Source: Nitrospirota bacterium (lineage in GTDB: Bacteria > Nitrospirota > Nitrospiria > Nitrospirales > Nitrospiraceae). Taken from it: a stretch of 64,000 nt of DNA. Below are positions 1 to 18,508 of the stretch, in pieces (the first letter of the stretch is position 1; each line of letters begins with the position of its first letter). The translations under genes were made by a program, and so were the position numbers. The notes beneath the pieces were generated by a model. It was not told the origin of the DNA, ran no database searches, and saw nothing but the letters and a program-made list of their open reading frames with translations. The DNA lies in NCBI GenBank assembly GCA_016219645.1, contig JACRLR010000007.1, forward strand, positions 248,001-312,000. The letters are read 5' to 3'.

Positions 1-1655
1 TCCTCGTGAAGCGTGTTGTGGCAATGCATGACGTACTTGCCCAAGAAGGTCCTGAACCGGATATAGATCTTCACTTCATCCCCCGGCTCAAGCACAACGA
101 CGTCGTGACGGCCTTGCTCTTCAAGGCCCGGGACCTCGCCGTTGCGCAGGAGGATCCGGAATTCTTCCAGGTGAATGTGGATGGGATGGGCCCAGCCTCC
201 TCCGCCATTCTTGAGGGTCCAGATTTCCGGCTGACCCTGTTTGATGGTGAAGGTGGGGATGTCGCCGTCGAAGAAATTGCCGTTGATGGCCCACGCACCG
301 TTCGTCCGCTCGAACCGAAATGTCCGCTGGTGCTGCTGCGCTGTGGCCAGATCCATCACCGGCATCTGGCGCAAGGTGGATGGGACCTGGCTGAAGTCCT
401 CCTCGGCGCCGACTGCGTCACGATCCACGATGAATTTGAGGACCGGCGATCCGGGATGGAGCAACTTGCCCGTCGGCTTCCGCCCGTCCTTCTGCTCCAG
501 GTTATTCTCGAGGATAATCTCGGTGCCGATGGGATACTCGGAAAAGTCGATGATGACATCCCGCCGGTTGGCGACACCCAACCCGACGTGCTCAACCAGC
601 AGCGGTGACTCCAACAGATTGCCGTCGGTGGCGATGAGGGTCATCCGCCTGTGATTGCTCAGCGAGAATTCATAAAACCGCGAAGGCCCTCCGTCGAGCA
701 ACCGGAAGCGATACTTCCGCCTGGCGACATTGAAATAGGGTTGAATCTTTCCATTGACCGCCCACTTGTCCCCCAGGAATCCGTCGAAATTGAAGGGGTC
801 GAACCATAACTGGCCCGAACTGTCGAACGCCTTGTCCGTGAACATGAGCGGGACGTCGAAGGCGCCGCTCGGCAATCGCAGGGCCTGCGGATTGGGGTCC
901 TGCTCGTTGCCGGAATCCACGTCGTCGAAGTAGAAATGGAAACCGGCGAGACCGCGGTAGACGTTCTGGGACGTAAAGTCCACGCGATGGTCGTGGTACC
1001 AGAGAGTGCCGAGGGCCTCACGCGGATCGTTGCCCGCCAAGACGATCGGAAAATGATGGTCTCTGTATTGGCCCGAGATGAGGAAGCTGGTCGGGTGTCC
1101 GTCACTGAATGATTCCTGGTGCCCGTTGTGGTTGTGGGTCGAGGTCTCCGGCACGCCGAGGCCGACATGGTTGATCGGCAGTTGATTACGGAACCGCACG
1201 ATCTTCGGCTGCCCGTACCGCGCGATCATCGTCGGACCAGGGGTGATGCCTTCGAACCCCCAAATCTCCTGAGGGGGAAGTTCGGGATGAAAACTGTGCA
1301 TGCCAGGCTTGATATCGATCTGATAGAGTTCATTCACCGGACCCGGGTCTGACCCGAACCCCTTATTCAGCTGGTGCTCCGCCTGATTGACCGGTGGAGT
1401 CAGACTCGCCACTTGCGGGAGAATCGGCGGGATCGACAATGGCACGACCCAGGGTGTCGTGGCCGGACTCTTGCCCCCCGGCATCCCCTGTAATCCCTCC
1501 GGTATGGGCATTGGATCCGTCCCGGGCGGCGGTGGTGGAGGAGGGGGCGGGCAGACTTCCTGAGCGCGTGCGTACTTCAGCAGGCCCAAGCCGGCCAAGG
1601 TGGCGCCTCCGGTCACCAGACTCCATTTCATGAAACCGCGACGTGAACTCTTCAT
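1..1655 (-). CDS. Multicopper oxidase, Tat-exported (3' end cut by window edge)
   Basis: Reading frame open from the ATG at 1655 to the window edge, 551 codons seen. The N-terminus has a twin-arginine motif (SSRRGFMKW) with a hydrophobic stretch ending ARAQ, so the protein is predicted to be exported folded through Tat. A run of eight prolines follows CP in the mature start. Type-1/trinuclear copper motifs are all present: HNHNGHQ, LWYHDH, HPIHIHLEEF and, at the last codons, MHCHNTLHE. This is the three-cupredoxin-domain family (CotA/bilirubin-oxidase/CueO-like), which oxidises phenols, metals or similar donors while reducing oxygen to water; the substrate cannot be read from sequence. Probably only the last few tens of residues are missing. 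It is codirectional with, but about 1 kb downstream of, the LEPR genes. Confidence 0.93.
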   Translation of the reverse strand, partial: MKSSRRGFMKWSLVTGGATLAGLGLLKYARAQEVCPPPPPPPPPGTDPMPIPEGLQGMPGGKSPATTPWVVPLSIPPILPQVASLTPPVNQAEHQLNKGFGSDPGPVNELYQIDIKPGMHSFHPELPPQEIWGFEGITPGPTMIARYGQPKIVRFRNQLPINHVGLGVPETSTHNHNGHQESFSDGHPTSFLISGQYRDHHFPIVLAGNDPREALGTLWYHDHRVDFTSQNVYRGLAGFHFYFDDVDSGNEQDPNPQALRLPSGAFDVPLMFTDKAFDSSGQLWFDPFNFDGFLGDKWAVNGKIQPYFNVARRKYRFRLLDGGPSRFYEFSLSNHRRMTLIATDGNLLESPLLVEHVGLGVANRRDVIIDFSEYPIGTEIILENNLEQKDGRKPTGKLLHPGSPVLKFIVDRDAVGAEEDFSQVPSTLRQMPVMDLATAQQHQRTFRFERTNGAWAINGNFFDGDIPTFTIKQGQPEIWTLKNGGGGWAHPIHIHLEEFRILLRNGEVPGLEEQGRHDVVVLEPGDEVKIYIRFRTFLGKYVMHCHNTLHE

Positions 1656-2569: not shown

Positions 2570-2634
2570 GGGGGTCAGGAACCATTTGTCGGAACGACCC
2601 GTAGGGCGCTGCGCGCAAATGGTTCCTGACCCCC
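2570..2634. repeat. REP-like palindrome, 19-bp perfect arms
   Basis: GGGGGTCAGGAACCATTTG at 2570-2588 is exactly repeated in inverted orientation at 2616-2634, with an inner GC-rich part containing a small hairpin (GACCCGTAGGGC). The layout resembles REP elements mobilised by RAYT transposases; no such transposase is in this window. Confidence 0.7.
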
Positions 2635-2646
2635 TAATATCCGAGT

Positions 2647-2676
2647 CGGAGGTCCCGCCTCGTGGCGTGACCTCCG
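2647..2676 (-). terminator. 3' stem-loop of LEPR-4
   Basis: CGGAGGTC pairs with GACCTCCG, 15 bp beyond the LEPR-4 stop. All four LEPR genes carry the same stem at almost the same distance. There is no clear U-tract, so it may stabilise the 3' end rather than act as a classical terminator. Confidence 0.6.
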
Positions 2677-2691
2677 ATCGTCATGATCTGA

Positions 2692-3360
2692 TTAGCGGAT
2701 CCGGTTGCTCACATTCTTGACGGTAAACTTGTAGTTCCCCGTCGCATCGGTGAACGTCACTGTATCGGCATAAGTCCCGACGGCGGTGTGCGTCGTGCTG
2801 CTCAGATCCAGCCCGGCGCTCAAGTCCTCGCCCAACACCCCCGTCGCCGTCCCCGTCGCCTGATGCGGCAAGCCATCGTAGAGCACGTCGTATCCGGTCA
2901 GCGTGATCACGGCATTGGCCTTGTTGATCGTGCTCTTCACGTTCTTGAGCGTATCTTTATAGTTGCCCGTCACGTCCGTAAAGGTGACCGTGTCGATATA
3001 CGTCCCCGCGTTGGTGTGCGACGTGACGCTCATATTTAGGCCAGCCAGGCTTTCGCCCAGCACCCCCGTCGCCGTGCCCGTCGCCTGGTGCGCGAACCCG
3101 TCATAGGTGCCGTAGTAGCCGGTCAGGCTAATCACCGCGTTGGCCTTGTTGATCGTGCTCTTCACGTTCTTAATCGTATCTTTGTAGTTGCCCGTCACGT
3201 CCGTAAAGGTGACCGTGTCGATATACGTCCCCGCGTTGGTGTGGGACGTGACGCTCATGTTCAGGCCGGCCAGGCTCTCGCCCAACACGCCCGTCGCCGT
3301 CCCCGTCGCCTGGTGCGCCGCCCCGTCGTAGGTCCCGTAGTACCCGGTCAGGACGAGCGT
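2692..3360 (-). pseudogene. Out-of-frame C-terminal part of LEPR-4
   Basis: This frame encodes two complete MBG repeats of the type GYYGTYDG...GVLGESLAGLNMSV...NTGNYK-like and the conserved C-terminus ending NVSNRIR. It belongs to the gene that starts at 7813 but is shifted by one base because of the 91-bp tandem duplication at 3270-3451. Removing one copy restores a single frame of 1,676 codons. As sequenced, this part has no start of its own and would not be translated as part of LEPR-4. Confidence 0.85.
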
Positions 3361-6300
3361 CCAGGCTCTCGCCCAACACGCCCGTCGCCGTCCCCGTCGC
3401 CTGGTGCGCCGCCCCGTCGTAGGTCCCGTAGTACCCGGTCAGGACGAGCGTGGCGTTGGCCTTGTTGATCACGATGGCCACGCTGCCGTTCGCATCGTTG
3501 TAGTTAGTCCCGCCGCTGAACGACCAGTTTGCTGTCCCGCCAGGCGCATTGGTGAAGCTCGCACCCAGGTTCAGGCCGGCATTCAAGTTCACGCCGCCTA
3601 TGCCTGTCGCGCTACCCGTCGCCCCGTGCGCTGTCGCATCATAGACGCCGGTGTAGCCGCTCACGGTGATCGTCGCGTTCGCCTTGGTGATGTTCGCCGT
3701 CGACGTCGCAGTGGACGACAACAGGCTGTAGTTGGTCGCCTCCGTGCCGGTGATCCCCAGGCCCGTGAGGGTCACGGTCTTGCCGTTGCCTGCGTTGGCA
3801 TCGTCGAAGGTGGCAACGCCGCCGGTCAGGCTCACGTTGTCCGGAGCGATGACTCCGTTGAGCGTCATGACCAAGCCGGTCGTAGCCGTGTTGCCGTCAT
3901 ACACCTTGTTGTTCACGGCGAAGCTGGCCGTGAGTTGTTTGGCCGTGATAGCCGCCGTGCTCGTGATAGTGGACGACGCCAGGCTGTAGTTGGTCGCCTC
4001 CGTACCGATGAGCGTCGCGCCCGTCATGTTCACCAACTTGGCAGGGCCGACGATCGAAGAGTTGAAGGCGACCGAGGTGAAGGCCAGGGTCACGTTGTCT
4101 GGAGCGATGACTCCATCGACCGTCGTGACCAGGCCTGTCACCGATGTGTTGCCGTCATACGCCTTGTCGTTCACGGTAAAAGTGACCGTGAGCTGCTTTT
4201 GCGTGATAGCAGCCGTGCTCTGGACGAAGGAGGACGCCAGGCTATAGTTGCCCGCGTCTACTCCGATCAGAATCAAGCCAGTGAGGTTCACCAGCTTGGT
4301 GGGGCCGGCGATCACCGAGTTGAAGGCGACCGTGCCAAAGTCCCAATCCACGTCATCCGTGCCGATAAATCCTGTGAGATTCCCGATCAAGCCGGTCGCG
4401 GTCGTATTGCCGTCATAGACTTTGTCGTCCACGGTGAAACTGAAATCAAGCTGCAACGCCGTGATGTCAGCCAGCGCATTGGCGACCAATGTCAGATTGT
4501 AGTTGCCTGCATCCGTGCCGAAAAGGGCCGCGTTCAGGAGCGTCACGGTCTTGTCAATACCGACGTCCTTCGTATCGAAGTCCGCCTGGTCAAAGGTCAG
4601 GATCACATCATCACCCACTATGGTTCCCGCGAGCGATGTCCCGGACACGGCGGCCAGAGTAGTCCCGTCATAGACCTTACTGTCCGCCGCGAAGCTGCCC
4701 GTGATGTCCAGGGCCGTGATGTCCGCCGTCGTCGTTGCGACCGACAGCAGGCTGTAGTTGCCTGATGCCACGCCGCCGAGCGTCGCGCCCGTGAGTGTCA
4801 CCGTCTTGCCGGTGCCGACATTCTTGCCGTCGCCGACGATTAACACATCGTCGAAGCTCGCAGTGCCGCCGGTCAGGCTCACGAGGCCGACATCGCCAGC
4901 GAGGACTCCCGTGAGCGACGTCGATGCCACACTGGCCGAAGTGGTGCCATCATAGACCTTGTGGTCTGCTGTGAAACTGCCCGTGATTCCCAAGGCCACG
5001 ATGTTCGCTGTCGTCGTGATGGGCGACAGAGACAGAGTATAGTTACCCTGATCCGCACCGGTAAGCGCCGCGCCAGTCAGCGTCACAGTCTTGCCTATGC
5101 CGGCATTCGCATCGTCGAAGGCAGCAGTGCCGCCGGTCAGACTCACATCGTCACCCAGGATGGCTCCCGTGAGGGTCCTGGTCACTACGAAGGCCACGGC
5201 GTTGCCGTCATAGACTTTGTTCGCCGCCGTGAAGTCGCCCTTCCCCGCAGCCACACCTGTGAGCGTCGCGCCGGTGAGTGTCACGGTCTTGCCGGCCCCG
5301 ACATTCTTGTCGGCCAAGGTCGCAGTGCCGCCGCTCAGGTCCACGAGGCCCAGGTCACCAATGAGGACTCCCGTGAGCGACGTCGATGCCACGCTGGCCG
5401 CAGTGGTACCGTCATAGACCTTGTTGTTCGCCGTGAAGCTGCCGGTGATCGCCAGAGCCGTGATGCTCGCCTGGTCCGTAATAGCGGCCGGCGACAGGAC
5501 GTAGTTGCCCGCGGCTGCTCCGCCTAGCGTTGCGCCAGTGAGAGTCACGGTCTTGTTGATGCCGGCATTCGCGTCGTCGAAGGTTGCGATGCCACCGTCC
5601 AGAGTCACATCATCGAGCCCGATGACTCCCAAGAGCGATGTGTTCTGCGCAGTCGCGTCAGTGGTGCCGTCATAGACCTTGTTGTTCGCCGTGAAGCTGC
5701 CGGTAATTTCCAAGGCCGAGATGCTGGTAATGACGTCCCCACTAAAATCGTTATAGTTTCCCGCGCCGCCAATGAAATTGATTGTGTCGGTGAAGAGCCC
5801 GGCATTGGTGTGCAGCGGGCCGGTCATCAGGATCTCGCCCAAGACTCCCACAAGCGTGGCCCCATGGGCTGCTCCATCATAGACACCGATGTAGTCAACG
5901 GGCGTGACGTCAGCCTTGTTGATGACAATTTCGACAGTGCCCGCAATGGCGCTACTGGCATTCTCGTAGTTCCCCGTGAGATCGGTGTAGTTCCAGTTCG
6001 CTGTTCCGCCTGGTACGTTAGTAAAGGTGTCACTCACCAGGCCGGCGCTCAGATCCTCGCCCAAGACGACCCCCACAACCGTCGCCCCATGCGCCAATCC
6101 GTCGTAGGTGCCGTTGAAGCCTGTCACAGTCACGGTAGCCTTGCTCACATCCACTATCGTGCTGCCCGAGGTGCTGCCAAAGAAGGTTGCCGGGGCGGTG
6201 AAGACTGCATGGATCTGATTATGTAGGCCGGCTGTGAGGGTCGCGATGTTCAGTGTAAAGGTTGAATCCAATCCGAGGCTACCGTCGAAGTTGCCGAACC

Positions 6301-7813
6301 CCAGTGAGTTCCCCACCCCATCAAAGAACTCGACCGTGCCGATCGGAGCGCCTGCATCAGGAACCAAGGCTGTGACGGTCGCGGTGAGAGTGACCTGATC
6401 TCCATAGGTGGTGGCGTTTGTACTAGCGGAGATCGAGGTGGTCGTATTGACAGTCACCTCGTTAATCACGATGTCCACAGTACCGAACTGAGGATCATAG
6501 TTGTTGTTGCCGCTGAAGGTCCAGTCGGCTACGTGGGTCCCTATCGCGGTGAAGCTCGGACCCAAATCCAGGAGACCGCTCAAGTCCTCGCCGAGTACGC
6601 CTATTGCCGTGCCGGTCGCTCCATGTGGTTGATTGTCGAAGGCTCCGATAAAGCCGTTCACTGTGACGGACGCTGCTGCCTTATCGATATCCGCCAGAGC
6701 CGTGGCGACCGACGTCAGGTTGTAGTTGCCTGCATCTGCGCCGAAGAGGGTCGCGCCGATAAGGGTCACGGTTTTATTGAAGTCGGCGTCCGCATCGTTG
6801 AAGGTCGCAATACCACCGCCCAGGGCCACCTCGTCGAGACCGACAACTCCACTGAGATCGAGGTCTGTAAACAATACGAAGGCAGCAGTGGTGCCATCGT
6901 AGGCCCTGCTCTCCGCTCCGAAGCTGCCTGTGATGTTCTTCTGGTTGACTGTATGGTCGACCGCTACGGACGGACTGTCATTGAAGCTGTCGGTGCCGTT
7001 ATCGCCGCCGGTGAAGACTGCATGGATCGAATAGGAGCCGGCAGCGAGCTGAGTCAGAGTGGCAGCTGAGAGGGTGACGCTAAAGACCGAAGACAAGCCA
7101 CTGCCGGGGGTGGCACTGGAGGTGGCCCCCAGTGAATTATTCAGGGCATCAAAGAACTCCACCGTACCGATCGGGTTGGTCGTTCCGCCAGCCGAAGGCG
7201 TCACTGTCGCGGTAAAGGTCACATCGTCTCCATAGGTGGACGTAGCGGAACTGGCAGTGACCACGGTGCTTGTGTTGACATTGGCGTCCGTGAAGGCGTG
7301 GGTAGCCATAGCCCCGGACTCTTGGCCGGCGGCAGTCACTAAGAGAGTCGAGTTCCGGTACTGCTCCTCCACATACCAGGTCGTGCTGATGCTGCTGTTC
7401 ACCATCATGTCGTTGTCCGGCGCAATCCAATCTGCCACGCCGTCGCCGCTCACATCCGATCCCAGATGGGCCGTAAACCCGCCCATTCCGTCGACGACAT
7501 ACCAGGCTTCGTTGCCCGCCGGTCCCACGCCGGTCGTTGAGCCGCTGTAATCAGCCATGCCGTCGGTGCGGGTGACCTGGAAGCTCACCATTTCACCGGC
7601 TGAGAATTGTAAACCGTCGCCGGCCTGATTCGACGTGGTAATCACCGCTGTCTCGCGCGGCGCATAGTCCTGATGGTCGGTGGTCACCACCGCCGCAGTC
7701 ATGGGCGTGGCCGACAGCAGCAAACGTGGTTCCAGCGACTCCACTGTAAAATCATTGGCGCGCGGCTCACGTCGGTTACGCTTTTTGAGATTAAGCAGTT
7801 TCTTGAGCTTCAT
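3170..7813 (-). CDS. LEPR-4: giant MBG/YDG repeat protein with LEPR leader, frameshifted near 3' end
   Basis: 1,547 codons as sequenced. It starts MKLKKLLNLKKRNRREPRAN with a good ribosome site (AGGAG, 7 nt). The leader has the LEPR-XLL signature LEPRLLLSA around residues 28-36. An N-terminal module shared by three paralogues follows (DYAP..TAVITTSN; SDVSGDGVADW), then an Ig-like repeat, about ten YDG repeats (KVYDGTT...KTVTLTGA...AGNY) and MBG repeats (GxYDGxAHxATG...TNAG). Such proteins are usually surface-exposed adhesins or matrix proteins. No classical signal peptide is visible. The last 75 or so residues are out-of-frame nonsense caused by the 91-bp duplication; the true C-terminus is at 2692. 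Likely cargo of the export genes at 16-25 kb. Confidence 0.88.
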   Translation of the reverse strand: MKLKKLLNLKKRNRREPRANDFTVESLEPRLLLSATPMTAAVVTTDHQDYAPRETAVITTSNQAGDGLQFSAGEMVSFQVTRTDGMADYSGSTTGVGPAGNEAWYVVDGMGGFTAHLGSDVSGDGVADWIAPDNDMMVNSSISTTWYVEEQYRNSTLLVTAAGQESGAMATHAFTDANVNTSTVVTASSATSTYGDDVTFTATVTPSAGGTTNPIGTVEFFDALNNSLGATSSATPGSGLSSVFSVTLSAATLTQLAAGSYSIHAVFTGGDNGTDSFNDSPSVAVDHTVNQKNITGSFGAESRAYDGTTAAFVLFTDLDLSGVVGLDEVALGGGIATFNDADADFNKTVTLIGATLFGADAGNYNLTSVATALADIDKAAASVTVNGFIGAFDNQPHGATGTAIGVLGEDLSGLLDLGPSFTAIGTHVADWTFSGNNNYDPQFGTVDIVINEVTVNTTTSISASTNATTYGDQVTLTATVTALVPDAGAPIGTVEFFDGVGNSLGFGNFDGSLGLDSTFTLNIATLTAGLHNQIHAVFTAPATFFGSTSGSTIVDVSKATVTVTGFNGTYDGLAHGATVVGVVLGEDLSAGLVSDTFTNVPGGTANWNYTDLTGNYENASSAIAGTVEIVINKADVTPVDYIGVYDGAAHGATLVGVLGEILMTGPLHTNAGLFTDTINFIGGAGNYNDFSGDVITSISALEITGSFTANNKVYDGTTDATAQNTSLLGVIGLDDVTLDGGIATFDDANAGINKTVTLTGATLGGAAAGNYVLSPAAITDQASITALAITGSFTANNKVYDGTTAASVASTSLTGVLIGDLGLVDLSGGTATLADKNVGAGKTVTLTGATLTGVAAGKGDFTAANKVYDGNAVAFVVTRTLTGAILGDDVSLTGGTAAFDDANAGIGKTVTLTGAALTGADQGNYTLSLSPITTTANIVALGITGSFTADHKVYDGTTSASVASTSLTGVLAGDVGLVSLTGGTASFDDVLIVGDGKNVGTGKTVTLTGATLGGVASGNYSLLSVATTTADITALDITGSFAADSKVYDGTTLAAVSGTSLAGTIVGDDVILTFDQADFDTKDVGIDKTVTLLNAALFGTDAGNYNLTLVANALADITALQLDFSFTVDDKVYDGNTTATGLIGNLTGFIGTDDVDWDFGTVAFNSVIAGPTKLVNLTGLILIGVDAGNYSLASSFVQSTAAITQKQLTVTFTVNDKAYDGNTSVTGLVTTVDGVIAPDNVTLAFTSVAFNSSIVGPAKLVNMTGATLIGTEATNYSLASSTITSTAAITAKQLTASFAVNNKVYDGNTATTGLVMTLNGVIAPDNVSLTGGVATFDDANAGNGKTVTLTGLGITGTEATNYSLLSSTATSTANITKANATITVSGYTGVYDATAHGATGSATGIGGVNLNAGLNLGASFTNAPGGTANWSFSGGTNYNDANGSVAIVINKANATLVLTGYYGTYDGAAHQATGTATGVLGESLDARPDRVLRDLRRGGAPGDGDGDGRVGREPGRPEHERHVPHQRGDVYRHGHLYGRDGQLQRYD
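3270..3451. repeat. Exact 91-bp tandem duplication
   Basis: Positions 3270-3360 and 3361-3451 are identical over 91 bases. Since 91 is not a multiple of three, the duplication shifts the LEPR-4 reading frame. No substitutions separate the copies, so it is very recent or an assembly artefact. Confidence 0.95.
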
Positions 7814-8102
7814 GTTGGAATCTCCTGTTGGTTAGTGATGATGGGCCGCTGACGTATTTCGAATGGGGTTTCGCTCATGTCCGCTGTTGACGTCGACCTC
7901 AAATGACATGTTGTCGTCCTCTGCCTGCCGGAACCACTGGCGAATACATGGAGTATTTGTATGCTCGTCACTCACAAGAGACCATCCATCTTAGGTGCAG
8001 ACATACCCCTCTTTAGTTGGCCCCCATTGGAGGGAGTCGGAAGACTGGTTGATCTGGTTCATTTGGTTTGTTTTGTTTATTTGGTAGTTTCGCTCCAAGG
8101 CT
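7814..8102. other. LEPR-4 upstream region
   Basis: Contains the conserved leader of the LEPR family just before the start (ATCACTAACCAACAGGAG on the coding strand) and the array at 8045-8089. No gene seen. The motif ATCCATCTTAGGTGC at about 7983 recurs upstream of LEPR-2 at about 13730. Confidence 0.55.
8045..8089. repeat. 9-bp-period degenerate repeat (array A3)
   Basis: Successive nonamers TGGTTGATC, TGGTTCATT, TGGTTTGTT, TTGTTTATT, TGGTAGTTT. Only one strand orientation is present here, next to the LEPR-3 3' stem-loop. Confidence 0.75.
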
Positions 8103-8132
8103 CGGAGGTCATGCCACCTGGCATGACCTCCG
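8103..8132 (-). terminator. 3' stem-loop of LEPR-3
   Basis: Perfect 13-bp stem CGGAGGTCATGCC / GGCATGACCTCCG with a 4-nt loop, 14 bp past the ancestral LEPR-3 stop. It is the most regular of the four paralogous stem-loops. Confidence 0.7.
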
Positions 8133-8146
8133 ACCGTCGTGAGTGT

Positions 8147-8505
8147 TTAGAGAATCCGGTTGCTCACGTTCTTAACGGTAAACTTGTAGTTGCCCGTCAC
8201 ATCGGTGAAGGTCACGACATCGAGATAGGTCCCGACGTTGGTGTGCGTCGTGCTGCTCAAGTCCAGCCCGGCGCTCAAGTCCTCACCAAGCACGCCCGTC
8301 GCCGTCCCCGTCGCCGTATGCGCCAGGCCATCAAAGACCACGCTGTAGCCGGTCACGGTGATCACCGCGTTGGCCTTGTTGATCGTGCTCTTGACGTTCT
8401 TGATCGTATTCTTATAGTTGCCCGTCACGTCCGTGAAGGTCACGGCATCAATGTACGTGCCGGCATTCGTATGGCTCGTGACGCTCAGGTTCAGCCCGGC
8501 CAGGC
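8147..8505 (-). pseudogene. Out-of-frame C-terminal part of LEPR-3
   Basis: Encodes the last one and a half MBG repeats and the conserved tail NYKFTVKNVSNRIL, in a frame different from the main LEPR-3 reading frame. Comparison with the sister repeat at about 8685-8745 shows 37 bases missing at about 8505. Adding them back gives one frame of 738 residues from 10326 to 8147. As sequenced it lacks a start. Confidence 0.85.
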
Positions 8506-10326
8506 TCGCGCTGTCCCGTCATAGGTGCCGACATAGCCCGTCAACGAGATCGTCGCGTTCGCCTTGGCGATACTGCTGCTAACGTTCTTGACGGTATTCT
8601 TATAGTTGCCCGTCACATCGGTGAACGTCACCGTATCGAGATACGCGCCGGCATTCGTGTGCGACGTGACGCTCAGGTTCAGCCCGGCCAGGCTCTCGCC
8701 CAGGACCCCGGTGGCCGTTCCCGTCGCCTGGTGCGCTGTCCCGTCGTAGGTGCCGACATAGCCCGTCAACGAAATCGTCGCGTTCGCCTTGGCGATACTG
8801 CTGATGACGCTCCCGCTCGTACTGTTATAGTTTCCCGTGCTGTCAGTGAAGGTCCAGCTATCGCTGTAGATGCCGGCGTTGCTGTGCGGCGTACCGTTTA
8901 GAACCAGCCCACTCAGGCTCTCGCCCAACACACCAGTTGCGGTGACAGTGGCTGTATGAGCCGCTCCATCGTAGACACCGTGATAGCCACTAGTAACAAT
9001 CGTCGCGTTCGCTTTGGTAATGGTGATGCTGTTGGTCCCGCTGGCGGGGTTATAGTTGGGATTGGCGAAGGTCCAGCTCTCTGTATAGCTGCCCACGTTG
9101 GTGGGCTTCGTCATAATCAGGGAACCGCTCAAGTCCTCACCAGGGGCGCCGACGATCGTGGCCCCATGGGCCAACCCGTCATAGACTCCCGTGTAGTCGC
9201 TCACGACGACAGTGGCCGGAGTGATGTCAGCCTGGTCACCAGTGACCGAGTCCAAGATATAGTTGCCGGCGGCCGAACCGGTGAGGATTCCACCAGTGAA
9301 CGTCACAACTTTGTTGACGCCGACATTTGCCGTATCGAAGTTTGCCGAACCGGTCAGGCCCACGTTGCCCAGATCGATCAGCTCGACATTGTTCAACGTG
9401 GCAACTCCGGGCGCTACAGTAGTACCGTCGTAGACCTTGGAAACGTCGGCCGTGAAGCGGCCAGTGATGTGCTTCTGAGTCACCTCGTGCGAGATGTTTG
9501 CAGAGGTGCTGTCATTGAAACTGCCTGCTGTGCCGGTGAAGACTGCATGGACCGAATGAACGCCGGACGTAAGAGTGAACGTGAAGGCGTTCGTTTTAAA
9601 TTGCACGACCCCATCAGCACCGCCGCCACTGCTGACGGTCTCGATCCCCAGTGATATTCCATCGACGAAGAACTCCACACTCCCGGTCGGGTCAACAGTC
9701 CCAGCTGCTGCCGTAACCGTCGCGGTGAAATCTACATTCGTTCCATACACGGTGGTGGCGGCAGTAGCCGTGAGCACGGTCGTCGTGTTCGTCCCGGCGT
9801 CTGTAAAGGCCTGCGTCACCATAGCCCCGGACTCTTGACCGACAGCCGTCACTAAGAGAGAGGAGTTCCGATACTGTTCCTCCACAAACCAGGTGGTACT
9901 GATGCTGCTGTTGACGGTGAGATCGTTGTCCGGCGCAATCCAGTCGGCCACGCCGTCGCCGCTCACATCCGATCCCAGATGGGCGGTAAATCCGCCGATA
10001 CCGTCGGTGACATACCAGGCTTCGTTGCCGGTCGGTCCCACGCCGGATGTTGAGCCGCTGTATTCCGCCATGCCGTCGGTGCGGCTCACCTGAAAGCGAA
10101 CTAATTCACCGGCCCCGAATTGCAGGCCGTCGCCATTGGTATTCGACGTAGTAATCACCGCGGTCTCACCCGGCGCATAATCCACATGGTCGGTGGTCAC
10201 CACGGCGGCCGTCATGGGTGTGGCCGACAGCAGCAGGCGGGGTTCCAGCGACTCGAGTACAAAAGCATTGGCGCGGGGCTTACGGCTGTTACGTTTCTTG
10301 AGACTGAACAGTTTCTTGAATTTCAT
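8491..10326 (-). CDS. LEPR-3: MBG/YDG repeat protein with LEPR leader, frameshifted near 3' end
   Basis: 611 codons from the MKFKKLF start at 10326. This start is chosen over one ten codons earlier because GGGAG sits 7-8 nt before it and all paralogues begin alike. LEPRLLLSATPM is followed by the shared N-terminal module, one Ig-like repeat, one YDG repeat (KVYDGTTVAPG) and about five MBG repeats. The frame ends prematurely in TARAWPG because 37 bp of a repeat have been lost. Predicted to be exported and exposed like the other LEPR proteins. The family is known; the export route is inferred from the neighbours. A mobile-element-like insertion lies in its 5' leader. Confidence 0.87.
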   Translation of the reverse strand: MKFKKLFSLKKRNSRKPRANAFVLESLEPRLLLSATPMTAAVVTTDHVDYAPGETAVITTSNTNGDGLQFGAGELVRFQVSRTDGMAEYSGSTSGVGPTGNEAWYVTDGIGGFTAHLGSDVSGDGVADWIAPDNDLTVNSSISTTWFVEEQYRNSSLLVTAVGQESGAMVTQAFTDAGTNTTTVLTATAATTVYGTNVDFTATVTAAAGTVDPTGSVEFFVDGISLGIETVSSGGGADGVVQFKTNAFTFTLTSGVHSVHAVFTGTAGSFNDSTSANISHEVTQKHITGRFTADVSKVYDGTTVAPGVATLNNVELIDLGNVGLTGSANFDTANVGVNKVVTFTGGILTGSAAGNYILDSVTGDQADITPATVVVSDYTGVYDGLAHGATIVGAPGEDLSGSLIMTKPTNVGSYTESWTFANPNYNPASGTNSITITKANATIVTSGYHGVYDGAAHTATVTATGVLGESLSGLVLNGTPHSNAGIYSDSWTFTDSTGNYNSTSGSVISSIAKANATISLTGYVGTYDGTAHQATGTATGVLGESLAGLNLSVTSHTNAGAYLDTVTFTDVTGNYKNTVKNVSSSIAKANATISLTGYVGTYDGTARAWPG

Positions 10327-10348
10327 GTTGGAATCTCCCGTTGGTTTA

Positions 10349-10527
10349 ACCCGCATAATTCACGAGGGCTTCTACTGCAACCGCCGATACGCTGTTCCGA
10401 CGGGCGTGCTCGCCACTCAGTCGGTCAACATACTGTTCAAGTATGCTTCCCTCCTTCCCGGCTGCGCTTGCCCCTCTCATGACGCGTCTCAGCCGTTTCG
10501 TCACGAACCCTCGTGAATAATGCGGGC
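10349..10527. mobile_element. 179-bp MITE-like element in the LEPR-3 5' leader
   Basis: Terminal inverted repeats CCCGCATAATTCACGAGGG (10350-10368) and its complement at 10508-10526 match at 18 of 19 positions, and TA flanks both ends. The paralogous leaders of LEPR-2 and LEPR-4 read GGTTAGTGAT without interruption, so they act as empty sites. It has no coding capacity and would need a transposase in trans. Confidence 0.75.
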
Positions 10528-11027
10528 TAGTGATATGAGCCGCGGAATTTATTTCTGAAGATTTACTTCCACATCTCCCTCTTAACCCCGGCCTCAATCC
10601 AACCTCCCGGATTCTCAGCCACTAGACCCGGGCAGATTCCCCGACAACTGCACGGAATAGTCTGTACGCTCATCTCCGATGAACAACTATTCCTCTTCCA
10701 GGAGGGAATATCCCTCTTAAGTTGCTCCTCAAATGGGGGAGGTGCAGTGAGGTTTCACAAGCCATAGTTCGCCGGGTACCCTGACTCGGTGGACCATGTT
10801 TTCATTGCTTGTGAATCGTGAGAGAGGTGTGCGGAATGAAGCCAGTTCTGAGTTCTGCGTGTTGAGTTCTGAGTATGAAATGAGCGAAGCGGGCGAAAGT
10901 TCGAGGTTCGATGGGCAGAGTTTGAAGGCTGAAGTCCGAAGATCAGAAAACTCAGAACCCGGAACTCAGACATTCGGATCCCGCTCGTCACGCGCTTATC
11001 GGGGTCCCGCGCACATCATGAACGGTG
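10528..11027. other. Intergenic region between LEPR-3 and LEPR-2
   Basis: Carries the remainder of the LEPR-3 upstream region and the 7-bp-period array at 10845-10975. I see no gene; short frames in it are made of repeat sequence. Confidence 0.55.
10845..10975. repeat. 7-bp-period degenerate repeat hairpin (array B1)
   Basis: Left arm GTTCTGA, GTTCTGC, GTGTTGA, GTTCTGA, GTATGAA. Right arm runs GAAGGCT, GAAGTCC, GAAGATC, then AGAAAAC, TCAGAAC, CCGGAAC, TCAGACA. The strict 7-bp spacing is kept while the bases drift. Confidence 0.75.
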
Positions 11028-11059
11028 CGGAGGTCACGTCTTATACGGCGCGACCTCCG
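11028..11059 (-). terminator. 3' stem-loop of LEPR-2
   Basis: CGGAGGTC...GACCTCCG stem, 15 bp past the LEPR-2 stop; paralogous to those of LEPR-1, -3 and -4. Confidence 0.6.
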
Positions 11060-11074
11060 CCTATTCTGGCGCCC

Positions 11075-13597
11075 TTAGAGGATCCTGTTGCTCACGTTCT
11101 TGACGGTAAACTTGTAGTTGCCCGTCACATCCGTGAAGGTCACCACATCGAGATACGTCCCGACGTTGGTGTGCGTCGTGCTGCTCAAGTCCAGCCCGGC
11201 ACTCAAGTCCTCACCAAGCACCCCCGTCGCCGTCCCTGTTGCCGTGTGGGCTAACCCATCAAAGGTCACACTGTAGCCGGTTACCGTGATCACGGCATTG
11301 GCCTTGTTGATCGTGCTCTTCACGTTCTTGAGCGTATTCTTATAGTTGCCCGTCACGTCCGTGAAGGTCACCGCATCAATATACGTGCCCGCATTCGTAT
11401 GGGACGTGACGCTCAGGTCCAGCCCGGCGCTCAAGTCCTCCCCCAACACTCCGGTCGCGGTCCCCGTCGCCTGGTGCGCCGTTCCGTCGTAGGTCCCGAC
11501 GTAGCCCGTCAGGGTGATGACAGCGTTGGCCTTATTGATCGTGCTCTTCACGTTCTTGATCGTGTTCTTGTAGTTGCCCGTCACGTCCGTGAAGGTCACC
11601 GTATCGATATACGTGCCCGCATTCGTATGGGACGTGACGCTCAGGTCCAGCCCGGCACTCAAGTCCTCGCCCAACACTCCCGTCGCGCTGCCCGTCGCCT
11701 GGTGCGAGACTCCGTCATAGGTCCCGACGTAGCCCGTCAGGCTGATGACGGCGTTGGCTTTATTGATCGTGCTCTTCACGTTCTTGACCGTGTTCTTATA
11801 GTTGCCCGTCACGTCCGTGAAGGTCACCGTATCGATGTACACACCCGCATTCGTATGGGACGTGACGCTCAGGTCCAGCCCGCTCAGGCTCTCGCCCAAC
11901 ACCCCCGTCGCGCTGCCCGTCGCCTGGTGCGCCACCCCGTCGTAGGTCCCGACGTAGCCTGTCAGGCTGATCGTGGCATTCGCCTTGGTAACCACGATGG
12001 CCACGCTGCCGTTCGCGTCGTTGTAGTTGGTCCCGCCGCTGAACGCCCAATTGGCCGTCCCGCCTGGGACATTGGTGAAGCTTGCGCCCAGGTTCAGGCC
12101 GGCGTTCAAGTCCTCGCCCAAGACGCCCGTCGCGGTGCCGGTCGCCCCGTGCGCCGCCGCATCATAGACGCCGGTGTAGCCGCTCACGGTAATTGTCGCG
12201 TCAGCCTTGGTGATATCCGCTGTCGTCGTATTGACCGGCGCCAGGCTGTAGTTGCCAGATGCCGCGCCGCTCAGCGCCGCGCCCGTGAATGTCACAGTCT
12301 TGCCGGTGCCGGCGTCTGCCGTGTCAAATGTTGCCGTACCGCCGCTCAGACTCACGTCGTCACTCCCGATTACTCCTGAAATCGACGGGGTCCCCACGAC
12401 TGTCGCTGCCTGGCTGCCGTCGTAGACCTTGTTGTCCACAGTGAAGTTGACCGTCAGTTCCTTGGCTGTGATGTTCCCTGTGCTCGTGAGGGTAGACGAG
12501 ACCAGGCTGTAGTTGAGGCTTTCCGTGCCGATGAGCGTCGCGCCTGTCAGCGTCACGATCTTGTCGCTGCCCACATTTGCATCGCTAAAGGTGAGCGAAC
12601 TGAAGGCCAGGCTCACATCGTCCGGCGCCAGGACTCCCGTTAGCGTCACGGTCACGTCGGCTGCTGAGACTGAGGTGGTGCCGTCATACACCTTGTCGTT
12701 CACGGTGAAGCTGGCAGTGATTTGTTTCGCCGCCACCTGGTGTGTGATGCTGGCGGAGGTGCTGTCATTAAAAAACAGTTTGTCTCCTGTGACTGGGTCT
12801 ACTGCGCCGATAAATACGGCATGGAGATTCGGATGGTTTCCCTCGATGAGATACTGATAGGAGGGGATGCTCCAGGTCGATGTTCCAGCTCCTGTGCTGT
12901 CAGGGACAGAGGCGGTCCACATCAACGCCGACCCATCCCAGAACTCCACCGTGCCGGTCGGTGCCTCGGTACCAACCGCCGCTGTCACCGTCGCGGTAAA
13001 CGTCACCACATCTCCATAGGTAGACGTAGCGGAACTCTGGGTCAGCACGGTGGCCGTGTTCACTGCTTCATCCGTAAAGGCCTGGGTTGCCACAGCCCCG
13101 GACTCTTGACCGGCAGCCGTCACTAAGAGGGAAGAGTTTCTGTACTGTTCCTCCACAAACCAGGTCGTGCTGATGCTGCTGTTCACGGTAAGATCGTTGT
13201 CCGGCGCGATCCAGTCGGCGATTCCGTCTCCGCTCACATCCGATCCGCGATGCGCGGCAAACCCGCCGACGCCGTCGACGACATACCAGGCTTCGTTGCC
13301 TGCAGGACCGACGTCGGCCGTCGAGCCGCTGTAATCCGCCATGCCGTCGGTGCGGCTTACTTGAAAACGCACCAGTTCGCCTGCATCGAATTGTAGACCC
13401 TCGCCGGCTTGATTCGAAGTGGTAATCACGGCCGTCTCACCCGGCGCATAGTCCAGATGGTCGGTGGTCACCACCGCCGCAGTCATCGGCGTGGCCGACA
13501 GCAGCAGGCGCGGTTCCAGTGACTCCAGGACAAATGCGTTGGCGCGCGGCTGACGCCGGTTGTTCTTTTTGCAGGCAAACAGTTTCTTGAACTTCAT
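11075..13597 (-). CDS. LEPR-2: intact MBG/YDG repeat protein with LEPR leader
   Basis: 840 aa, the only one of the four cargo genes without a visible rearrangement. The start MKFKKLFACKKNNRRQPRAN is set by GGGAG 7-8 nt upstream; an ATG five codons earlier overlaps that site. Order: basic leader, LEPRLLLSATPM, N-terminal module with SDVSGDGIADW, Ig-like repeat, two YDG repeats (KVYDGTTSV; KVYDGSQAA), one GGTNYND-type MBG repeat, then five MBG repeats. The longest MBG unit type is 76 codons (228 bp), nearly identical from copy to copy, and the protein ends NVSNRIL. Probable role is a surface or matrix adhesin. Near-identical ends among paralogues point to ongoing gene conversion. Confidence 0.9.
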   Translation of the reverse strand: MKFKKLFACKKNNRRQPRANAFVLESLEPRLLLSATPMTAAVVTTDHLDYAPGETAVITTSNQAGEGLQFDAGELVRFQVSRTDGMADYSGSTADVGPAGNEAWYVVDGVGGFAAHRGSDVSGDGIADWIAPDNDLTVNSSISTTWFVEEQYRNSSLLVTAAGQESGAVATQAFTDEAVNTATVLTQSSATSTYGDVVTFTATVTAAVGTEAPTGTVEFWDGSALMWTASVPDSTGAGTSTWSIPSYQYLIEGNHPNLHAVFIGAVDPVTGDKLFFNDSTSASITHQVAAKQITASFTVNDKVYDGTTSVSAADVTVTLTGVLAPDDVSLAFSSLTFSDANVGSDKIVTLTGATLIGTESLNYSLVSSTLTSTGNITAKELTVNFTVDNKVYDGSQAATVVGTPSISGVIGSDDVSLSGGTATFDTADAGTGKTVTFTGAALSGAASGNYSLAPVNTTTADITKADATITVSGYTGVYDAAAHGATGTATGVLGEDLNAGLNLGASFTNVPGGTANWAFSGGTNYNDANGSVAIVVTKANATISLTGYVGTYDGVAHQATGSATGVLGESLSGLDLSVTSHTNAGVYIDTVTFTDVTGNYKNTVKNVKSTINKANAVISLTGYVGTYDGVSHQATGSATGVLGEDLSAGLDLSVTSHTNAGTYIDTVTFTDVTGNYKNTIKNVKSTINKANAVITLTGYVGTYDGTAHQATGTATGVLGEDLSAGLDLSVTSHTNAGTYIDAVTFTDVTGNYKNTLKNVKSTINKANAVITVTGYSVTFDGLAHTATGTATGVLGEDLSAGLDLSSTTHTNVGTYLDVVTFTDVTGNYKFTVKNVSNRIL

Positions 13598-14183
13598 GTC
13601 GGAATCTCCCATTGGTTAGTGATATGAACCGCGGAATTTTTGTTTGAAGGTGCTCTTCCCCATCTCCCTCATTGACGACGGACTCAGCAAAAGTCCTGCT
13701 ATGTGTACACTTGTCGCTGGGTGGGAAAAAATCCATCTTAGGTGCTGGAAGATCCCCCATAGGGGGGATAGGAGTGAGAGAGGGGGCAGCCAACAATCCT
13801 TCTTGCTCGCAGAGCCCCCACGGTACAGAGGATGGAACAGTGCCCGTGTCGGCCTTTTGCTCCCGGAACAGAAGAGGGGATGGAGCCTGATGATCTTCTG
13901 TGCTCGCGCAACGCGCGGTCGAAGACTCCCCTCGTTGGACGCGCGCAATAGAAAATCAATCAGCCCCCATCCCTGAAGAGATAGCAAGCGAGCTTGGAGG
14001 GGTTATCTGTAACCTCGTTCGACGGCCGCAGTCAGGCCTGACACGGGTACTGTTCCAGACGAGGGCAAATAAGCAAGCTTGGAGGGAACAGTTATATCTT
14101 TCGATGCGCGCAGTGAAGGAAAGGTTGCCTGTCCCCTATGGGGAAGCTGAAGTATCAGAAGGTGCGGTGCAAGGGCGTACGGT
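13598..14183. other. Intergenic region between LEPR-2 and LEPR-1
   Basis: Starts with the LEPR leader (CCGCGGTTCATATCACTAAC on the coding strand). It has a small palindrome ATCCCCCATAGGGGGGAT near 13752 and the segment at about 13949-14000 that recurs at about 2166-2210. A second copy of AAGCAAGCTTGGA lies near 14072. No believable gene. Confidence 0.55.
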
Positions 14184-14217
14184 CCGGAGGTCACGCATTA
14201 TGCGGCGTGACCTCCGG
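14184..14217 (-). terminator. 3' stem-loop of LEPR-1
   Basis: Perfect 13-bp stem CCGGAGGTCACGC / GCGTGACCTCCGG with an 8-nt loop, 12-13 bp past the stop. Confidence 0.65.
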
Positions 14218-14229
14218 GCGTCAGACAGT

Positions 14230-15891
14230 TTAGAGGATCCTGCTGCTGACGTTCTTGACAGTATTCTTATAGTTGCCCGTCACGTCCGTGAACGTCACAA
14301 CATCGAGATATGTGCCCACATTGCTGTGCGTCGTGCTGCTCAGGTCCAGCCCGGCGCTCAGGTCCTCACCGTTGACGCCGGTCGCCGTCCCCGTCGCCGT
14401 ATGCGCCAGGCCATCGTAGATCACATCATAGCCGGTCACCGTGATTACGGCATTGGCTTGGTTGATCGTGCTCTTCACGTTCTTGAGCGTATTCTTATAG
14501 TTGCCCGTCACGTCCGTGAAGGTCACCGTGTCGATGTACACGCCGGCATTCGTGTGGGATGTGACGCTCATGTTCAGCCCGCTCAGGTCCTCCCCCAAGA
14601 CCCCCGTCGCCGTGCCCGTCGCCTGGTGCGAGGACCCGTCGTAGGTGCCGTAGTAGCCCGTCAGGCTGATCACCGCGTTCGCCTGCTTGATCGTGCTCTT
14701 CGCGTTCTTGAGCGTATTCTTATAGTTGCCCGTCACGTCGGTGAAGGTCACCGCATCGATGTACACGCCCGCATTCGCATTCGTATGGGACGTGACGCTC
14801 AGGTCCAGCCCGGCGCTCAGGTCCTCACCGTTGACGCCGGTTGCCGTGCCCGTCGCCTCGTGTGCGGCCCCGTCGTAGGTTCCATAGTAGCCGGTCAGGA
14901 CGAGCGTGGCGTTCGCCTTGGCGATGTTCGCCGACGTCGTATTGACCGACGTCAGGCTATAGTTGCTCGCGTCCAGACCGCCGAGCGTCGCCCCCGTGAG
15001 TGTCACGGTCTTGTTGCTGCCCACATTCGCATCGACGAAGGCCGCAGTGCCGCCGCTCATGCTCACATCGTCACTCGCGATGACTCCAGCAAGCGTCTGG
15101 GTCTGCACGGTCGCCGTCGTCGTGCCGTCGTAGGTCTTGTTCGCTACTGTGAAGCTGGCCGTGAGACTCTTCTGGCTCACCGTCTGTTCGAGATTTCCGG
15201 AGGTGCTGCTCTTGTATCGAAGATGTTCTAGCCACTCATGGTGGCCTCGCCAATGGTTCTCTTGCGGCCCCCCATCATGCCGGTGATCGTCCGGCGGTCG
15301 GTGTAGATCCCGATGTTCGTGTGCGTTGTGCCGCTCAGATCCAGCCCACTCAGGCTCTCGCCCTGTACCGCCGGTAAACACGGCGTGGATCGCATGAGTG
15401 CCGGCCGTGAAGTTCGATACCGAAATGGTAAAGATTGCGGTCGAGCGACTGCCTCTACTGGCGGTGTCATCGATTCCCAGTGACCTTGTTCCATCAAAGA
15501 ACTCGACAGAACCTACCGGTCTGGCAGCTCCGTCCGCAGCCGTCACTCTTGCCGTAAACGTGACCGCATCTCCATAGATGGACGTGGCGGCGCTGGAGGT
15601 CAGAGTGGTAGTCGTACTTATGCCGCAATTGATGGCGAGGTCGTCCCTCCATCCGTTCGCGCCTGGCTTCCGGTGAGAGTGATTGCTGCCTCCGTTGCCC
15701 ATTGTGTCCGAAATGCAAATCACTGCGCTCTCGACATGCGAATGGCCCACGTGGTCGTGAGTCACATCCACGGGCGTCATGGGTGTGGCTGACAGCATCA
15801 AGCGGGGTTCCAGCGATTCCAGCACAAACGCATTGGCGCGCGGCGCGCGGCGGTGACGTTTCTTAAGATTGAACAGGTTTGTAAGTTTCAC
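14230..15891 (-). CDS. LEPR-1: short MBG/YDG repeat protein with LEPR leader and internal scar
   Basis: 553 aa. The GTG at 15891 is preferred because GGGAG precedes it and the product then begins (V)KLTNLFNLKKRHRRAPRAN like its paralogues. The leader reads LEPRLMLSATPM. The SDVSGDG N-terminal module is replaced by a His-rich stretch (DHVGHSHVE...GSNHSHRK). An Ig-like repeat, one YDG repeat (KTYDGTTTATV) and three MBG repeats follow, ending NVSSRIL. At 15215-15368 about 150 bp of an MBG repeat is inserted out of frame: the used frame reads GREPEWAGSERH..., while GESLSGLDLSGTTHTN is in another frame. Because the insert is about 150 bp, the downstream frame is kept. It is the first cargo gene after the export operon. 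Confidence 0.87.
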   Translation of the reverse strand: MKLTNLFNLKKRHRRAPRANAFVLESLEPRLMLSATPMTPVDVTHDHVGHSHVESAVICISDTMGNGGSNHSHRKPGANGWRDDLAINCGISTTTTLTSSAATSIYGDAVTFTARVTAADGAARPVGSVEFFDGTRSLGIDDTASRGSRSTAIFTISVSNFTAGTHAIHAVFTGGTGREPEWAGSERHNAHEHRDLHRPPDDHRHDGGPQENHWRGHHEWLEHLRYKSSTSGNLEQTVSQKSLTASFTVANKTYDGTTTATVQTQTLAGVIASDDVSMSGGTAAFVDANVGSNKTVTLTGATLGGLDASNYSLTSVNTTSANIAKANATLVLTGYYGTYDGAAHEATGTATGVNGEDLSAGLDLSVTSHTNANAGVYIDAVTFTDVTGNYKNTLKNAKSTIKQANAVISLTGYYGTYDGSSHQATGTATGVLGEDLSGLNMSVTSHTNAGVYIDTVTFTDVTGNYKNTLKNVKSTINQANAVITVTGYDVIYDGLAHTATGTATGVNGEDLSAGLDLSSTTHSNVGTYLDVVTFTDVTGNYKNTVKNVSSRIL

Positions 15892-15998
15892 GCGAAATCT
15901 CCCTTGGTGATTGGTGATAAGAGCCATGGAATAGTTATACAACGGCGCCATGACGCGGGCATTCCCCGGAGGTTGTCCCTCAAAAGTGGGGGCTGGGC

Positions 15999-16025
15999 TG
16001 GTTTGTTTGGTTTATTTAGTTCGAG
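15999..16025. repeat. 9-bp-period repeat (array A4)
   Basis: TGGTTTGTT, TGGTTTATT, TAGTTCGAG. Lies between tolC-like and LEPR-1 genes, next to the 6-bp array. Confidence 0.6.
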
Positions 16026-16048
16026 GAACGAGAGAAACCTTGAGAGGG

Positions 16049-16103
16049 AGCTGAGATCAGACTTTTCTCATCTCAACCTTAGCCTCAACCTCAACCTTCC
16101 GGT
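16049..16103. repeat. 6-bp-period repeat hairpin (array C1)
   Basis: Right arm CTCAAC, CTTAGC, CTCAAC, CTCAAC, CTTCCG; left arm has the complementary GAGAGG/GAGCTGAGATC type. It ends about 9 bp from the tolC-like stop. Confidence 0.6.
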
Positions 16104-16111
16104 ATCCGAGA

Positions 16112-17443
16112 CTACCGCAGTTCTTCGACTTGTCCCATCGCGCGCGCCAGATTCACGCGCGAGGCGTTCGCCCGAAACAAGCCGTCGATCATGTTATCCC
16201 GCGCGCGTGAGAGAGAAAAGAGCGAGTTGGATAACTCCAACGTGTTCGAACTCAGCACCCGCACCCGTTCTCGGGCGAGCTGCACTTCGGTCAGCGCCGC
16301 CTTGAGCCCGTCCTTGGCGATCCGGAGCTGTTCTTTCGCCGAGACGAGCGTCACCAGCGCTTCCCGCAACTCCATCGTGATCTGGCGCGTCACGATGTCC
16401 ATCTTGATCTCTTCTTGAAGAAGACGGCTGCGGCTCTCGCCGATCCGCCCCTGCCGTTGGCCCCCATCAAAGATGGGGACCGACAAGGTTACTCCGACGT
16501 TGTAGGTGCTCAGCGTGCTGTCAATATGGTTGCCGATGAGCCCGTAATTGCCATCCGCCTGCAGCGACGGCAGTCGCTCCCCCTTGACCGAACTCAGCAT
16601 GAGGCTCGACACCTGCAATCGCTGCTCCTGGGCCTTGAGTTCCGGCCGCTTGACGAACGCCACCTCCCGGGCATAGTCCTGGGTGGGCACCGGCTCATCC
16701 GGCGCTTTGAGTTCATCGGTGAGGATGAGCGTCGCATCAAAGGTGATGCCCAAGGCATTGGTCAGGATCAGCTTGGTCCGCTCGACATCACTCTTGGCCA
16801 ACTCCAAGCGTTGCCGTTCATTCTCCAGTTGGGTTTCCAGCCTGGCCGTATCGAGGCCCGTGGCCATTCCGCCGCTCTGCCGGCTTTTAATGTAGGCCAC
16901 GAGTTCCTTGTACAGCTCCACATTCGCCGTCCGTGCGGCCACGCTCTCGACGTTCCGCAGAACTTCCAAGTAATTCAAGGCCACAGTCGCCATCGTGTCA
17001 TTCTTCGTCGTCTCGGATTCCCCTTCCGCGACGGCCAGGGCCGCGCGCGAGGCGCGCCACCGTTCAATCAAGCTCCAACTGAAGAGCGACTGCGACAGGG
17101 TGCCTCGGGCATCGGCGACATTAAAGGGATCGCTCCGGATCGGCGCCCCACCAAGCGTCCCTTGAAAGAAGGTCTGATTGTTGTATTTGGCCGACGAGGC
17201 CAGGTTCGGCAAGAGGGCGCCGAGTTGCGTGGTGGCGACGCCCCGCGCCGCTTCAATCCGTTCTTTGTACAAGCGCACATTGGGATTCTTGTCCAGCGCC
17301 GCCTCAATGGCGTCCTTCAAACTCAGCTTGAGGACCGGCAGCTCCGGTGGGGGCTGCAGCGACGACTCGGCAGCTTGGCTGTGCCCCGCACACAGAAGAC
17401 CAGCCACAAAGATTGCCAACATCACGCCGGTGTAGATTCGCAT
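16112..17443 (-). CDS. TolC-family outer membrane efflux/secretion protein
   Basis: 443 aa with a cleavable signal peptide (LAIFVAGLLCAGHSQA|AES). Two OEP repeats of long coiled-coil helices follow, with family markers LKDAIEAALDKNPNVRL early and LSVPIFDGGQRQGRIGESR in the second half. TolC proteins trimerise into an outer-membrane barrel plus periplasmic tunnel and are the exit duct of type I secretion and efflux machines. It is the last export gene before four LEPR cargo genes, 133 bp after a HlyD-type adaptor, which supports a secretion role. Confidence 0.92.
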   Translation of the reverse strand: MRIYTGVMLAIFVAGLLCAGHSQAAESSLQPPPELPVLKLSLKDAIEAALDKNPNVRLYKERIEAARGVATTQLGALLPNLASSAKYNNQTFFQGTLGGAPIRSDPFNVADARGTLSQSLFSWSLIERWRASRAALAVAEGESETTKNDTMATVALNYLEVLRNVESVAARTANVELYKELVAYIKSRQSGGMATGLDTARLETQLENERQRLELAKSDVERTKLILTNALGITFDATLILTDELKAPDEPVPTQDYAREVAFVKRPELKAQEQRLQVSSLMLSSVKGERLPSLQADGNYGLIGNHIDSTLSTYNVGVTLSVPIFDGGQRQGRIGESRSRLLQEEIKMDIVTRQITMELREALVTLVSAKEQLRIAKDGLKAALTEVQLARERVRVLSSNTLELSNSLFSLSRARDNMIDGLFRANASRVNLARAMGQVEELR

Positions 17444-17480
17444 ACGGTCGCAGTTCCTTCACTACAAGAAGATCGTGATT

Positions 17481-17573
17481 TGGTCTGTCTGGTCTATTCG
17501 GTCTATCTGGTTGATCTAGTTATTCTCGTTCAACCAAACACACGAGACAGACCGAATAGACCAGACAGACCAG
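17481..17573. repeat. 9-bp-period repeat hairpin with 24-bp perfect arms (array A5)
   Basis: TGGTCTGTC, TGGTCTATT, CGGTCTATC, TGGTTGATC, TAGTTATTC on the left. The first 24 bases (17481-17504) are exactly repeated inverted at 17549-17572. It fills the gap between the HlyD- and TolC-type genes. Confidence 0.85.
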
Positions 17574-17576
17574 TCG

Positions 17577-18461
17577 CTAAGGCCCCTCGGCTGATGACAG
17601 GTGAAAATCCACGGTACACGCCAGGCCGGCGGAAATTGCATTGTTCGGATTCGGCAGTTCCAAGCGCACCCCGAATGTGCCGCTGGCGCTGTCGACGACT
17701 TTGTTCACCACCATAACCTTCGCTTGAAGAACCGGCTGCCCCTTTCCTTCCGGACGTACATCGGCTTTCATGCCGGCTTTCAACTTCCCGAGCAGCGAGA
17801 GCGGCGCAAACACCTCCACTCGCAATGGGTTGATCTGCGCCAGTTTCATCACAGGCGTCTGCTGGCGGGCCATCTCGCCGGGAGACAGCAGCCGATCGAC
17901 AACGACGCCGGCAATCGGACTTCGAATCGTGCGCAGCTGCAGCGCAGCTGTGGCGCGATTCAATTCCAATTCAGCCTGGCGCTTGTGTTCCGATGCATCC
18001 CGATAGGCCGATTCCGCCAAGGCCTTTTCCGTCTGGGCCTCATCGACTTCGTGTTGGGCAATGGAGTTGGTCTTGAACAATTCCTGAGCCCGTTCGAGTT
18101 TCCGGCTGGTAAACCCCATCTTCAGCTGACTGCTCTTCAACGCCGCTTCTGCCTCCGCCTTGGCTTTCGCCAACGCAACAGTCGCCTCTTCGAAGCTCGA
18201 TTCGAGTGTCAAGATCACCTGTCCCTTCGCGACCCAATCTCCCCGGTCCACCGGCACCGTTTGAATGAGACCCTCCACCGGGGTCCCGATGGAAATCTCG
18301 TCATAGGGTGTGATCACGCAGGCCGTTCCCGCTGCCCATACAGACGGCACCGACAGGGCAGAGAGTGCCGCTGCGACGATCAGGGTGCCCGTCGCACACT
18401 GCCCCTTCAGCCGCCATTTGTGTGGCTGTTTCACTTCCTGACATTCCACGAACATGTCCAT
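17577..18461 (-). CDS. HlyD/RND-type periplasmic adaptor protein
   Basis: 294 aa. Signal peptide (ALSALSVPSVWA|AG), a lipoyl half-motif (GLIQTVPVDRGDWVAKGQVIL), an alpha-helical hairpin (residues about 80-165, rich in Ala/Glu/Lys), the second lipoyl half (LRTIRSPIAGVVVDRLLSPG) and a beta-barrel domain. Membrane-fusion proteins of this kind bridge an inner-membrane motor and TolC. No RND or ABC pump gene accompanies it, so its inner-membrane partner is more likely the SecA/M50 module upstream. The gap to the SecA-like gene (97 bp) holds a 7-bp-period array. Confidence 0.9.
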   Translation of the reverse strand: MDMFVECQEVKQPHKWRLKGQCATGTLIVAAALSALSVPSVWAAGTACVITPYDEISIGTPVEGLIQTVPVDRGDWVAKGQVILTLESSFEEATVALAKAKAEAEAALKSSQLKMGFTSRKLERAQELFKTNSIAQHEVDEAQTEKALAESAYRDASEHKRQAELELNRATAALQLRTIRSPIAGVVVDRLLSPGEMARQQTPVMKLAQINPLRVEVFAPLSLLGKLKAGMKADVRPEGKGQPVLQAKVMVVNKVVDSASGTFGVRLELPNPNNAISAGLACTVDFHLSSAEGP

Positions 18462-18508
18462 TCAATCACCCTATTCCATTGTCCCGACTTGGGAACTGCT
18501 CCGGCCCC

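Follow-up and report, generated by a model that had tools for sequence, protein, structure and literature searches.

Background

Spontaneous tandem duplications within genes have been described for three capsule genes of pneumococci, cap3A, cap8E (wchA) and tts (work by Waite et al., 2001, 2003, to which PMC4243769 and PMC4022640 refer). As the citing papers summarize this work, a tandem duplication inside the open reading frame inactivates a gene that determines a surface structure, and the loss of one copy reverses the effect. The fate of tandem repeats of comparable length is known from Escherichia coli, where 101-bp repeats undergo high-frequency deletion without RecA (Lovett; PMC8378479). 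The assay was an engineered one, based on tetA, and it explains how a copy is lost, not how a duplication forms. LEPR-XLL proteins with YDG and MBG repeats (NCBIfam NF012209; Pfam PF18657 and PF18887) provide a further point of comparison, as they include the proteins described below.

The LEPR cluster and its features

The window that we analysed is a stretch of 64,000 bp (G000:C7:248001-312000) from a 3.65-Mb draft Nitrospira assembly of 71 contigs, obtained from environmental DNA. The closest relative of the source genome is Nitrospira sp. CG24E (G018). Four LEPR-XLL proteins, LEPR-1 to LEPR-4, are encoded in a row and are the only four in the genome. The N-terminal LEPR-XLL motif (NF012209) scores 27.9 bits against a curated cut-off of 17, which places these proteins in the family; LEPR-4 shares this motif and the YDG repeats with its paralogues, and Big_3_5 and MBG repeats are also present in these proteins. 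The features of the cluster are the following, in window coordinates.

3 to 1655, minus strand: multicopper oxidase adjoining LEPR-4, synteny anchor for LEPR-4 orthologues in relatives
2692 to 3438, minus strand: MBG repeats in the native frame of the LEPR-4 C-terminus, lost from the protein through the duplication
3170 to 7813, minus strand: LEPR-4 as assembled, 1,547 aa, with LEPR-XLL start, Big_3_5, nine YDG and MBG repeats, and a last portion out of frame
3270 to 3360, no strand: first 91-bp copy in plus-strand coordinates, the second of the two in the direction of the gene and translated out of frame
3361 to 3451, no strand: second 91-bp copy in plus-strand coordinates, the first of the two in the direction of the gene and translated in frame
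8147 to 8518, minus strand: native C-terminal frame of LEPR-3 past its break
8491 to 10356, minus strand: LEPR-3, frameshifted
11075 to 13612, minus strand: LEPR-2, intact paralogue, 845 aa
14230 to 15951, minus strand: LEPR-1, intact paralogue with a His-rich linker
16112 to 24757, minus strand: export-type cluster adjoining the LEPR genes (TolC/OEP, HlyD, SecA-like ATPase, M50-PqqD-HlyD fusion, GAF-HlyD)

An exact 91-bp tandem duplication shifts the LEPR-4 frame

Positions 3270-3360 and 3361-3451 are identical 91-mers that directly adjoin each other, on which a repeat finder and exact self-matching agree; TRF describes the same interval as 2.0 copies of period 91 with a 100% match. As 91 leaves a remainder of one when divided by three, the reading frame of LEPR-4 is shifted. 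The gene reads 3451-3361 in frame but the other copy in a shifted phase, and the MBG profile accordingly matches in frame 1 as far as 3356 and in frame 0 between 3360 and 2701. Beyond the break, the assembled protein continues with about 63 foreign residues to a stop at 3170. The native frame remains free of stops to 2692 and ends in VKNVSNRIR, like the paralogues LEPR-1 and LEPR-2, and the truncation costs about 192 native C-terminal residues. Both frames are stop-free over their overlap of about 270 nt (3170-3438). The original prediction that two identical tandem copies break the frame, at the cost of a C-terminus ending as in the paralogues, is thus borne out, and the length of 1,676 aa that it gave for the protein with one copy removed is correct by arithmetic from the coordinates, (7813 - 2692 + 1 - 91)/3 - 1.

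The duplicated piece corresponds to the front of one MBG repeat (approximately profile positions 4-33 of 73) and contains the GC peak of that repeat. GC content is 74% over the two copies, compared with 57% genome-wide, and its maximum, 82% over 45 nt, falls in the top 0.015% of the windows sampled. No homology (0 bp) extends beyond the two copies on either side, and the junction sequence does not occur elsewhere in the genome, so that there is no donor elsewhere. The duplication is no chance feature, since the approximately 1.55 Mb of the draft that were scanned contain no second one that is exact and has a unit of at least 20 bp. TRF detected no short-unit repeat tract at 3270-3451, and two copies of a 91-bp unit differ from the many short-unit copies that characterize simple-sequence contingency loci. 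A canonical four-run G-quadruplex motif is absent from 2601-16500, and a strong hairpin at the tract was rejected because its folding is no better than that of shuffled sequences (z -0.35).

Frames of LEPR-3 and LEPR-1

A second break, which the original prediction had missed, affects LEPR-3. At 8507/8508 it lacks 37 bp that the neighbouring repeat unit has, likewise with zero homology at the junction, and the MBG array goes on in a different frame to 8147. LEPR-3 thus carries a deletion and not a duplication, but both breaks fall at the same repeat codons (GESL, profile positions 30-33).

LEPR-1, too, gives the impression of a frameshift in its middle: the sequence that encodes its His-rich linker (15249-15371) is that of an MBG segment, which scores 41.5 bits in the alternative frame. 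We rejected LEPR-1 as a third recent frameshift, because the His-rich stretch is in frame in G018 and in a further relative, G023. For the same reason the linker is old and has been kept, and it looks like an example of overprinting. Its alternative frame is also the one in which the out-of-frame tail of LEPR-4 is read.

Relatives and selection

Orthologues of LEPR-4 lie beside the same multicopper oxidase in three relatives. They are full length and encoded in one frame in G041 (1,582 aa) and in G023 (1,187 aa), and in G018 the gene is split, its parts lying at the ends of two contigs that stop within the repeat array. No frame break was found within any readable LEPR/MBG array of G018, G023, G041, L128 or G028, whereas two of the four copies are frame-broken in the cluster described here. 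Comparable duplications, whose recurrence in the gene family would be expected of duplication-based phase variation, are likewise lacking among these five relatives. G041 also carries a 5'-truncated LEPR/MBG remnant (L166 11871-12521) upstream of its intact LEPR-4 orthologue, an instance of paralogue loss in this family. A one-copy genome of the same species was not found among 32 genomes of the genus, one per species; none of them is closer than G018, whose contigs break in the array.

Past the breaks, dN/dS is about 0.10 in LEPR-4 and 0.07-0.11 in LEPR-3, compared with 0.10 in the intact LEPR-2, although some of the comparisons involved paralogues, and these values could be lowered by gene conversion. 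Judging from these ratios, purifying selection downstream of both breaks is the same as that on LEPR-2. As the native frames downstream are still strongly conserved, both breaks are either very recent on this scale or not real.

Origin of the duplication

We favour, with a probability of roughly 0.52, a recent passive tandem duplication of 91 bp from the GC-rich front of an MBG repeat, which truncates LEPR-4. It would have been created by a replication error at the G-rich tract, a mechanism that we infer because no NHEJ gene was found and flanking homology is lacking; end joining was rejected, as no Ku was found in the genome. The truncation may be tolerated since two paralogues, LEPR-1 and LEPR-2, are still intact. 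The two 91-bp copies could then collapse to one through template switching, at a low but measurable rate. RecA is present in the genome, and LEPR-4 resembles the E. coli repeats in repeat length and tandem arrangement; the deletion of those repeats without RecA predicts RecA-free copy loss here and implies that a real 91-bp duplication can be undone. The duplication would then be a contingently reversible mutation and not an adapted switch. If it is present in cells, a redundant repeat protein of a nitrifier would have undergone a new truncation that is contingently reversible, which is an ordinary kind of event. It is nevertheless suspicious that two recent zero-homology breaks occur at the same repeat position in neighbouring paralogues, a coincidence for which a technical cause would be simpler. 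At least one gap of 11 N elsewhere in the draft also suggests scaffolding, and perhaps gap closing.

Such a technical cause, an assembly error, had been raised from the outset. Contigs could have ended at the GC-rich tract, and a scaffolder or gap closer could have joined them so that the overlapping 91 bp were entered twice, the LEPR-3 deletion being an error of the same type in the opposite direction. Concatenation of overlapping pieces yields exact copies without homology at their ends, as at 3270-3451, and a gap closer that overlooked an overlap would leave such a scar. The extreme GC peak of the tract, the break at the same repeat place in LEPR-3 and the conserved frames downstream of both breaks fit this explanation. 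So do the contigs of two relatives, which end in this same region of the repeat (G018 C56 at GVLGVNL, L128 at GESL), and the 11-N gap, located in a low-complexity stretch (G000:C10, L051, 2541-2551), which points to scaffolding of the draft. However, contig ends share 141, 140 or 137 bp. These overlaps are typical of a de Bruijn assembly whose final graph word is k=141, by an assembler that we take to be MEGAHIT, and a contig-overlap artefact with k=91 was rejected on account of their length. Since the 91-bp unit is shorter than the 141-bp word, a one-copy template should, from the behaviour of such assemblers, give no two-copy path without junction reads or later editing. Moreover, a systematic production of duplication scars was rejected, as no second exact tandem duplication exists in the approximately 1.55 Mb scanned, and the LEPR-2 arrays, of similar GC content, were assembled intact. 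Systematic frame breaks at GC peaks were also rejected: frame changes occur at 10 of 84 such peaks, one of which is the duplication site itself, against 301 of 2839 random positions. A literature search on assembly artefacts returned nothing specific. The idea of an assembly error is thus weakened by the word length, by the absence of other scars and by the lack of any excess at GC peaks, but it is kept alive by the scaffolding and by the second break at the same spot of a paralogue, and we regard it as a serious contender against which we lean. If it were correct, the lesson would concern GC-rich repeat arrays in draft genomes.

The original prediction had also proposed that slippage could switch the C-terminus on and off. 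Evolved phase variation of this kind, in which the duplication would be gained and lost often enough to toggle the LEPR-4 C-terminus and to provide adaptive surface diversity, would suit a surface-type repeat protein and the instability that a 91-bp tandem repeat has by general principle, and pneumococcal capsule genes do switch through reversible duplications (cited in PMC4243769 and PMC4022640). LEPR-4 resembles cap3A and tts in having an exact, frame-breaking tandem duplication inside the gene, and by analogy it could work like these reversible duplications. Reversion is reported for the capsule genes, to the extent that the citing papers recount it, whereas LEPR-4 is a repeat-array protein known from one consensus sequence of an uncultured environmental bacterium. 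A lone duplication without flanking homology offers no substrate for forward slippage and nothing to drive repeated duplication, and the site has no short-unit repeat tract. Nor do the readable arrays of the five relatives contain such a duplication or a frame break. The contig, of 316 kb, is continuous through the site and not branched, which argues against a balanced mixture of one-copy and two-copy molecules, as such a mixture should branch the k=141 graph if the assembler behaves as expected. The proposed switching by slippage therefore finds no support, the duplication is unsupported as an evolved switch, and we consider phase variation very unlikely. Should reads show a mixture, surface-protein phase variation in Nitrospira would become directly testable and the duplication would matter more. 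It also seems unlikely that LEPR arrays repeatedly gain or lose frame in vivo at a hotspot formed by the G-rich front of the MBG repeat, to which the LEPR-4 duplication, the LEPR-3 deletion and the old LEPR-1 linker would all belong and which would give a population mosaic of long and short surface proteins. Finally, the complete C-terminus, or a C-terminal product of its own, could still be made through programmed +1 ribosomal frameshifting or through reinitiation within the overlap at 3170-3438, given that both frames are open there; but any recent 91-bp duplication would give an out-of-frame overlap, programmed +1 sites are rare and the exact duplication alone accounts for the frames, which makes this possibility barely conceivable.

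Adjoining genes and minor features

The conserved export-type cluster next to the LEPR genes encodes one TolC-like protein, a short SecA-like ATPase and three HlyD-type proteins, one of them as a fusion with an M50 peptidase and PqqD. Open reading frames with matching lengths and C-termini are present in G018 and G023. This cluster (16112-24757) is possibly a dedicated secretion route for the LEPR-XLL proteins.

Two smaller features were noted around LEPR-4. Within the gene, part of a YDG repeat has been lost in frame at 5220-5290 (GVAAGKGDFTAANK). An inverted repeat of about 20 bp at 2570-2636 (gggggtcaggaaccatttg ... caaatggttcctgaccccc) lies between LEPR-4 and the multicopper oxidase gene.
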